This document shows positions 17,919 through 20,835 of a stretch of DNA of 64,000 nt, one piece after another. Below the pieces are notes generated by a model. The model was not told the origin of the DNA and searched no databases. It was given only the letters and a program-made list of their open reading frames with translations. Position numbers and translations under genes: made by a program. This DNA comes from Methylotenera sp. (GTDB lineage Bacteria > Pseudomonadota > Gammaproteobacteria > Burkholderiales > Methylophilaceae), in NCBI GenBank assembly GCA_005777825.1, contig SXLB01000073.1, positions 1-64,000 on the forward strand, read 5' to 3'. Each line of letters begins with the position of its first letter. Position 1 is the stretch's first letter.

Positions 17919-19457
17919 ATGTGCGGAATCATAGGTATTGTTGGTAAAAACCCAGTTAACCAATTGTTGTACGATGGTTTGTTGGTCTTGCAGCACAGGG
18001 GCCAAGACGCCGCAGGCATTGTTACCACCGACGGCAATACCTTTTTTATGCATAAAAATAACGGCTTGGTTAAAGACGTTTTTCAAACCCGCCACATGCG
18101 TAGTTTGGTTGGCAATGTCGGTATCGGACATGTGCGCTACCCAACTGCCGGTTCATCGAGTGCCGCGGAAGCCCAGCCTTTTTATGTCAACTCGCCATTC
18201 GGCATAGTGCTGGGTCACAACGGCAATCTGACCAATTCGGATCAATTGAAATCCGAAATGTTTAAACAAGATTTACGTCACATCAATACCAATTCCGATT
18301 CCGAAGTATTGCTCAATGTGTTGGCGCACGAAATTGAACAAACCTCACGTAATGCCGTGCTAAATACCGACATGACTTTTGATGCGGTGGCTGGCGTGCA
18401 CAGACGCTGCAAAGGCGCGTACGCGGTAGTGGCCATGATTGCCAACTTTGGCTTATTAGCCTTTCGCGACCCCAATGGCATACGCCCCTTGGTGATAGGC
18501 AAGGCCGAGACCGATAAAGGCACCGAGTACATCGTCGCTTCAGAAAGCGTGGCCTTGGATGTGCTTGGCTTCACCTTGGTAAGAGATGTAGCGCCGGGTG
18601 AGGCTATATTTATCGACATGCACGGTAATTTTTTCAGTCGCCAATGCGCCGAGCAAGCCAAGCTCAACCCCTGTATTTTTGAATACGTTTATTTAGCCAG
18701 ACCCGACTCCGTCATCGATGACGTGTCTGTTTACCAAACCCGATTGGACATGGGCAAAACCCTGGCAGAAAAGATCAAGCGTGACTGGGCTGATAAGAAA
18801 ATTGATGTGGTGATTCCTATCCCTGACACCAGTCGTCCCAGTGCCTTGCAGGTCGGTATAGCCTTAGGTTTGGATTACCGGGAGGGCTTTATTAAAAATC
18901 GTTACATAGGCCGTACCTTCATCATGCCTGGCCAAGCTTTGCGTAAGAAATCGGTTAGGCAAAAACTCAATCCCATAGGCATAGAATTTAAAGGTAAAAA
19001 TGTTTTGCTGGTGGACGATTCCATCGAGCGCGGCACCACCTCCCAGCAAATTGTGCAGATGGCTAGGGATGCCGGTGCCAATAAAGTCTATTTTGCTTCT
19101 GCTGCACCGCCGGTGCGCTTTCCTAATGTCTATGGCATAGACATGCCCAGTCGCGATGAATTGCTCGCGACGGGCCGTACCGATGAAGAGATTTGCCGAG
19201 AAATCGGTGCCGACGCCCTGATCTATCAAGATTTGAGCGCCCTAGTTGGGGTGGTGAAGTTAAGTAACCCAAAAATAGTCGATTTTGATTGCTCCTGCTT
19301 TGATGGTAAATACGTGACCGGTGACATCAGTGAGGCTTACTTAGCTAATATAGAATCGGCCCGTGGCGACGTGAATAAAAAACAAAAACCGGCCAACGCC
19401 AGTACGCAAATAGATTTAAATTTAATCGACAGTTTTGAAGACGCCGTGGCCGACTAA
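17919..19457 (+). CDS. purF: amidophosphoribosyltransferase
   Basis: [34 protein letters not shown]. Confidence 0.98.
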
Positions 19458-19471
19458 AAAAGCGTCTTGAC

Positions 19472-19493
19472 GGTATGCCAGCTATGGCATACC
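19472..19493. terminator. Perfect hairpin GGTATGCC-agctat-GGCATACC after purF
   Basis: 8-bp perfect stem, no clear U-tract. Confidence 0.5.
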
Positions 19494-19499
19494 ATCCAA

Positions 19500-19618
19500 T
19501 TGCGCTGATTTGAGTGACTCAACTTAAACAAAGTCTTACTCAGCTTGCGGGCGCATTATAAACACAGCTAAAGCGAGTTCAAAAACCCGTTTAGCTAAGA
19601 CCTAGGCGGGTTTTTTAA
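19500..19618 (+). ncRNA. SAM-II-type riboswitch aptamer plus terminator expression platform upstream of metZ
   Basis: TTGCGCTGATTT...TTGCGGGCGCATTATAAACACAGCTAAAG carries the hallmark SAM-II blocks GCGCUGAUUU, UUGC, GCGC, AUAAA and GCUAAA. It is followed by terminator AAAAACCCG...CGGGTTTTTT. Confidence 0.82.
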
Positions 19619-19641
19619 CGTCTAAATAACACGGGATTATT

Positions 19642-20835
19642 ATGACTATAAATAAATTTCACCCACAAACCTTGTCAGTTAGAGCGGGTAGCGAAATGAC
19701 CGCTTACGGCGAGAATTCCGAAGCCTTGTTTCTGAATTCCAGTTTTCGTTTTGACAGTGCTGCGCAAGCGGCAGCAAGATTTGGCGGCAGCGAGCCGGGT
19801 AATATTTATTCGCGCTTTACCAATCCTACCGTCACCGTGTTTCAAAATAAACTGGCGGCCCTGGAGGGAGCGGAACAATGCGTGGCGACGTCCAGCGGCA
19901 TGTCGGCGATACTGGCTTGCGTCATGGGCTTATGCAGTGCGGGCGATCACATTGTGGCCTCACGCAGCATATTTGGCACCAGCGTGCAGCTGTTTAGCAA
20001 TATATTGGCGCGCTGGGGTTTGCAAGTCAGCTTTGTTTCCCTGACCGATTTGGCTGAATGGCAATCTGCGGTCACTGACCATACCAAATTGTTTTTTGTG
20101 GAAACGCCATCCAATCCGCTGACCGAAGTATGCGACATCGCTGCCTTGGCTGACATCGCACACAAGGCGGGCGCTCACTTGGTGGTGGACAATTGTTTTT
20201 GCACGCCTGCCATACAGCGGCCTTTGGCATTGGGCGCAGACATCATTATTCATTCCGCGACCAAATACATAGACGGCCAAGGTCGTTGCTTGGGCGGAGC
20301 CGTGCTTGGTTCTAAGGCACTAATGGAGCCGGTTTATGGCTTTCTAAGAACCGCTGGCGTCACCATGAGTGCGTTTAATGCCTGGGTGTTTTTGAAGGGC
20401 TTGGAGACCTTGTACGTGCGCATGGACGCGCATGCACGTAACGCCTTGGCTTTGGCTACATGGCTGGAACAGCAGCCTGGTGTGGCGCGCGTCTATTACC
20501 CTGGCTTAAGCTCGCATCCGCAGCATGCGCTGGCGTTGCGTCAGCAAAGCAGTGGTGGTGGTATCGTTAGCTTTGAGGTGCGGGCTAAAGCTGGGCAAAC
20601 GCCACAGCAAGCAGCCTGGGCTTTGATTGATGCGACCAAGCTCATATCCATTACAGCCAATTTGGGTGATGCTAAGTCCACCATTACCCATCCGGCTACC
20701 ACCACCCATAGTCGTGTGACAGCCGAAGCACGAGCAGCAGCAGGTGTAGTGGATGGCTTGGTGAGAATTGCCGTTGGCCTTGAGCATATCGACGACTTAA
20801 AATCCGACTTATCCATGCTCACGGCTCTTGCCTAG
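19642..20835 (+). CDS. metZ: O-succinylhomoserine sulfhydrylase
   Basis: Cys/Met metabolism PLP enzyme: TLSVRAGSEMTAYGENSEALFLNSSF...SATKYIDGQGRCLGG. Confidence 0.93.
   Translation: MTINKFHPQTLSVRAGSEMTAYGENSEALFLNSSFRFDSAAQAAARFGGSEPGNIYSRFTNPTVTVFQNKLAALEGAEQCVATSSGMSAILACVMGLCSAGDHIVASRSIFGTSVQLFSNILARWGLQVSFVSLTDLAEWQSAVTDHTKLFFVETPSNPLTEVCDIAALADIAHKAGAHLVVDNCFCTPAIQRPLALGADIIIHSATKYIDGQGRCLGGAVLGSKALMEPVYGFLRTAGVTMSAFNAWVFLKGLETLYVRMDAHARNALALATWLEQQPGVARVYYPGLSSHPQHALALRQQSSGGGIVSFEVRAKAGQTPQQAAWALIDATKLISITANLGDAKSTITHPATTTHSRVTAEARAAAGVVDGLVRIAVGLEHIDDLKSDLSMLTALA

Follow-up and report, generated by a model that had tools for sequence, protein, structure and literature searches.

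The SAM-II riboswitch (RF00521, SAM_alpha; PDB 2QWY) accompanies methionine genes, and some RF00521 members have a terminator as their output. Thirteen letters of its pocket are fully conserved, namely U10-U12, which form the triplex strand of the SAM pocket, U20-C23 and G42-A47 (position numbers from PMC3764141). SAM-II was mentioned in Beta- and Gammaproteobacteria in 2007 (PMC2258182) and 2009 (PMC2704228), and a long-loop variant was reported in 2010 (Weinberg et al., PMC2864571), meaning that loop growth is already known. The Rfam long-loop family (RF01726, SAM-II long loop), with a SAM-II core and longer loops, is listed for Bacteroidetes and marine samples. The SAM-II riboswitch of S. 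meliloti metZ is predicted to terminate transcription, and high SAM brings more of the short leader RNA and less metZ mRNA (PMC9373788).

Two further descriptions concern the same kind of locus. The metXZ RNA element of Betaproteobacteria lies upstream of metX or metZ (in three Methylophilales it precedes metZ), and has a pseudoknot built from regions 1-4 and 2-6 with a terminator downstream; it was counted apart from SAM_alpha, its ligand was unnamed and its conserved region 3 was unexplained (Leyn et al. 2014, PMC4239095). RF02424 (Bp2_287, ‘Burkholderia sRNA’) belongs to the same locus type, with a model that runs along the opposite strand; those who described it suggested a cis element for methionine metabolism (PMC3521395).

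The window analyzed here is a whole stretch of 64,000 nt of Methylotenera sp. DNA (contig SXLB01000073.1). Its host is a methanol-eating bacterium, and metZ is a methionine-making gene. A leader of ~140 nt (19500-19641, + strand) is flanked by purF on one side and metZ on the other, and contains an H-type pseudoknot aptamer followed by an intrinsic terminator, some of whose bases also belong to an antiterminator. The features are as follows.

17919-19457, + strand: purF, amidophosphoribosyltransferase, upstream of the leader (NCBIfam TIGR01134, 533 bits vs. a cut-off of 350)
19467-19495, + strand: sigma-70-type promoter TTGACG-17-TACCAT; predicted RNA start at ~19501-19503, the first base of P1
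19501-19506, + strand: P1, 5' strand UGCGCU, pairing with 19550-19555
19507-19511, + strand: 5' part of L1, GAUUU; U19509-U19511 are U10-U12 of 2QWY
19512-19541, + strand: enlarged L1 hairpin GAGU-GACU...AGUC-UU-ACUC (covariation in relatives)
19545-19548, + strand: UUGC, equivalent to U20-C23, P2b 5' strand (conservation; positions from PMC3764141)
19550-19555, + strand: P1, 3' strand GGCGCA, pairing with 19501-19506 (covariation)
19556-19566, + strand: L3, 11 nt, A-rich (UUAUAAACACA), of conserved length
19567-19572, + strand: GCUAAA, equivalent to G42-A47, P2b 3' strand and SAM contacts (conservation; positions from PMC3764141)
19575-19578, + strand: GAGU, possible distal P2 with ACUC 19538-19541; competes with the base of the L1 hairpin and is weak within any group
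19566-19596, + strand: antiterminator, AGCUAAA 19566-19572 with UUUAGCU 19590-19596 (predicted in nascent RNA ending at 19598)
19581-19616, + strand: intrinsic terminator AAAAACCCGUUUAG-CUAAGAC-CUAGGCGGGUUUUUU (-16.6 kcal/mol, z -4.33)
19642-20835, + strand: metZ, O-succinylhomoserine sulfhydrylase, the regulated gene (NCBIfam NF006003, 683 bits; TIGR01325, 574.7 bits)

An earlier sequence-only reading had named metZ as the target of a SAM-II-type riboswitch, and the downstream ORF is indeed metZ by NCBIfam, exceeding the cut-offs of both NF006003 and TIGR01325, with PDB 9iqh as a further basis. At the other end of the leader, a TTGAC box and a -10-like box are equally spaced from GCGCTGATTT in 14 relatives. 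A perfect inverted repeat, GGTATGCC-AGCTAT-GGCATACC (19472-19493), overlaps the spacer and -10 box of this promoter; it was rejected as an operator, not being conserved in close relatives.

The leader and the metXZ element are alike in position, host group and architecture, and on these grounds the leader corresponds to metXZ. With SAM-II (RF00521) it shares P1, the UUU triplex strand, the UUGC/GCUA P2b, the 11-nt A-rich L3 and the association with methionine genes, and it differs in its 33-nt L1 spacer and an extra covarying hairpin. The SAM-II fold would explain region 3 of metXZ, in that UUGC pairs with GCUA and builds the SAM pocket. We did not find metXZ equated with SAM-II in open-access literature text.

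Assignment to the SAM-II class

Searches with existing Rfam models do not recover the leader. At the gathering threshold, a score that is a detection cut-off and not a structural feature, Rfam reports only a tRNA; RF00521 (221 nt searched) gives 19.8 bits vs. a cut-off of 36 (E = 0.016), and RF01726 gives 12.4 bits vs. a cut-off of 44. Over the window’s own genome another spot also scores 19.8 bits with RF00521, and the site is not separable from background by this measure. The miss arises because 33 nt lie between U12 and U20. The RF00521 search named by the sequence-only reading thus falls short on the window itself and succeeds through relatives: an orthologous short-loop metZ leader from the Methylophilaceae (L050) scores 36.9 bits, over the cut-off. 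The Rfam SAM-II model overlooks many long-loop members.

We relied on a covariance model of our own (R1), built from 28 short-loop class elements, none of them from Methylophilaceae. P1 is the only structure it encodes, and neither the window nor any family leader went into it. R1 matches the window at 19500-19580 with 48.5 bits (E = 2e-11), the next match scoring 9.8 bits. Within the order, R1 has matches (E ≤ 0.001) in 111 of the 150 genomes searched. Among alphaproteobacterial SAM-II loci it recovers 20 of 22 (E < 1e-4), a success that is not independent because the R1 seeds are themselves RF00521 matches.

The SAM-II blocks listed by the sequence-only reading are all found at 19501-19572 in the order given there. 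None of the 13 pocket letters is missing from the window, and 117 of 118 elements have the full set. The 64 kb contain a single match to a loose descriptor (TGATTT-N6-36-TTGC-N14-24-GCTAAA), where chance would give 0.01.

Relatives were gathered by gene rather than by RNA similarity: metZ orthologs were identified in 117 of 120 Methylophilaceae genomes, and leaders were taken from 70 loci. Among these leaders, whose alignment the earlier reading had put forward as a check, the element is found in 65 of the 70, with P1, GAUUU, UUGC, L3 and GCUAAA kept. Between UUGC and GCUAAA lie 18 nt in 63 of the 65 (and in 17/24 alphaproteobacterial aptamers). In two other Methylophilaceae genera (L041, L053) the metZ leader has no detectable element, which suggests loss or a moved gene.

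P1 has 6 pairs in the window and closes GAUUU...UUGC. It is paired in 96-97% of cells (96% across class, family and Alphaproteobacteria), and four of its six pairs show changes on both sides in the class set; over the whole structure there are 41 cells with both-sided changes vs. 16 in shuffles. The P2b core, UUGC/GCUA, is invariant across the elements compared, and covariation cannot test it because it never varies. Relatives in which the P1 and pseudoknot bases neither persisted nor covaried would have counted against the class; P1 covaries and the P2b letters are kept. To judge from its sequence, with the R1 score, the complete set of pocket letters, the P1 covariation and L050 in agreement, the metZ leader is a genuine SAM-II-class riboswitch with an L1 hairpin, as the sequence-only reading had proposed for the class.

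The enlarged L1 loop

The L1 spacer (19512-19544, from U12 to U20) measures 33 nt vs. 7-12 nt in short-loop aptamers (8-12 nt in the short-loop class set and in Alphaproteobacteria). That this loop can fold on itself, as had been claimed, follows from the relatives and not from the fold of this one sequence, which taken alone does not reach significance (z -1.26; equally good folds in 20 of 200 shuffles). A comparison of 25 distinct family loops close to this one in length shows 92% of cells paired in the hairpin GAGU-GAC...GUC-UU-ACUC, and two of its pairs change on both sides (G-C becomes A-U in 8 sequences and C-G becomes U-A in 6). Its covariation score exceeds that of every shifted register and of each of 500 shuffles, in a shuffle test that kinship can inflate.

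The suggestion that the insertion may be an unusual variant was overstated. An enlarged loop is common to most Methylophilaceae metZ leaders and is the common form in the family; across its elements the UUU-to-UUGC loop ranges from 8 to 45 nt, with the other blocks kept. A scan of named genomes also shows enlarged loops in other Betaproteobacteria (e.g., Noviherbaspirillum, Lacisediminimonas and Keguizhuia), and because the hairpins sitting there are unrelated, L1 looks like a site tolerant of hairpin insertion. Enlarged-loop pattern matches in Pelagibacteraceae and several other records were discarded as false: the true element is compact, and the impression of a long loop comes from a second GATTTGA upstream. 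Among 80 parsed pattern matches, 24 are without the GCGC of P1 beside GATTT.

The base of the L1 hairpin and distal P2 both need ACUC 19538-19541 in the window, and the GAGU copies at 19512-19515 and 19575-19578 are identical, either being able to pair with it. The hairpin might then take part in an active strand exchange with distal P2 that tunes SAM affinity or folding speed, instead of being a passive insertion; this would refine the SAM-II attenuator and is compatible with it. Conservation of GAG...CUC and GCGAG in nearly all family leaders speaks for such an exchange. As a trait of the SAM-II class, distal P2 covaries across groups at pairs 2-3 (0 of 300 shuffles attain their paired fraction, and pair 3 has 21 cells changed on both sides, again matched in 0 of 300) but not inside the short-loop group. 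Against strand exchange, distal P2 is weak within groups (pairs 3-4 are paired in 34-38% in the short-loop group, and shuffles do equally well), and the unrelated hairpins at L1 elsewhere suggest a tolerated insertion. We regard the exchange as rather unlikely. Equally speculative is a broader proposal, that metXZ is the betaproteobacterial branch of SAM-II, its L1 hosting grafted hairpins, and that the Methylophilaceae hairpin may set the amount of SAM needed for pocket closure through competition between GAGU/ACUC and distal P2.

A second insertion site lies in L3: some betaproteobacterial elements, including metX and metH leaders, have a hairpin there that separates P1 from the AAAU block (L302, L303, L304, L305, L144, L145, L149, L158).

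Ligand, terminator and switching

A SAM-II-related aptamer with an altered ligand, or with a preference for another methionine-cycle metabolite (e.g., SAH), could still terminate, and two points favor it: the case for SAM is built from sequence, and Leyn et al. (2014) took the element as new and named no ligand. We consider it improbable, since the pocket letters, including U11 and U21 that read the positive sulfonium of SAM, are kept in all but one of the elements compared, and relatives precede metK, metF, metN, metX and metH.

The terminator stem comprises 14 bp, A-U pairs counted. In predicted folds, RNA to 19598 adopts the antiterminator and the complete leader prefers the terminator, and the two are mutually exclusive because TTTAG of TTTAGCT lies in the terminator stem. 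The sequence-only reading had paired AGCTAAA with a TTTAGCT inside the terminator and described the two pairings as interleaved. TTTAGCT (19590-19596) is where that reading requires it, with its first five bases in the stem, and the interleaving holds; AGCTAAA lies at 19566-19572, not at 19565-19571 as had been given. A downstream complement (at least 6 nt) of the aptamer 3' strand is present in 72 of 94 relatives, vs. 8% with a shuffled query, and overlaps the terminator 5' arm in 64 of the 94, both counts being approximate, with 6-7 leaders mis-anchored. Shared bases in the window and complements in relatives thus support the overlap of terminator and antiterminator.

The strong terminator in the leader would also suit a leader that senses no metabolite, whether a plain constitutive attenuator or some other device (peptide attenuator, T-box), but this is highly improbable given that T-box and all other leader families fall short of their cut-offs, that ATG is absent from 19500 to the metZ start and that conservation of the aptamer far exceeds a terminator’s needs.

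Sequence, homology, covariation, gene context and mutually exclusive pairings are the basis on which we judge it very probable that the leader is a SAM-II-class riboswitch with a hairpin in L1 (from U10-U12 to the P2 5' strand), most likely acting by transcription attenuation. We infer SAM as the ligand, the direction of switching and termination in the cell. At low SAM, AGCUAAA would pair with UUUAGCU in the terminator 5' arm and RNA polymerase would read into metZ. When SAM is ample, its binding would lock UUGC and GCUAAA in the P2 pseudoknot, freeing UUUAGCU; the terminator could then form and metZ would be off. The S. meliloti metZ riboswitch is a precedent for this termination logic in the Methylotenera leader.

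A SAM-II riboswitch on metZ is a largely expected find, as plentiful SAM should turn metZ off. Methyl transfer is central in methylotrophs, and the prediction for these organisms is that SAM directly caps homocysteine synthesis. The novelty is modest because SAM-II in Betaproteobacteria and ‘long loop’ variants have already been reported. What appears to be added is the link between metXZ and SAM-II, the covarying loop hairpin and evidence for RF02424 as a reverse complement; a likely ligand, SAM, can be assigned to a betaproteobacterial element published without one, along with an explanation for its unexplained conserved region.

Distribution and related elements

RF00521 has matches at E ≤ 0.001 in 77 of 229 genomes of the class, and in 21 of the 229 they are over the cut-off. 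The genes 3' of the relatives are metZ, metX, metK, metF, metN and metH, as read from N-termini rather than by family search, and elements preceding genes that read as metK, metF, metN, metX and metH occur at L085, L094, L096, L100, L103, L104 and L303-L306. The SAM-II gene set in the class seems, from these sequences, to be wider than metX/metZ.

Tandem SAM-II-like aptamers are present at several loci in Burkholderiales (L293-L299, L301). The first aptamer has a terminator, and ~40-110 nt later there is a divergent second one, GCGCCGATTTAA...ACAACTTGCGGGGCGC, which is without a clear terminator and absent from Rfam output. We dropped these as a new arrangement; tandem SAM-II riboswitches were published in 2022 (PMC9481103).

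RF02424 matches the strand opposite the SAM-II element at L050:184-297, L293:149-285, L294:1668-1804 and other loci. Both searches of the order have five genomes in common, and in each of the five the two are on opposite strands. By these matches, RF02424 looks like the reverse complement of a SAM-II leader, its model having been built on the wrong strand.
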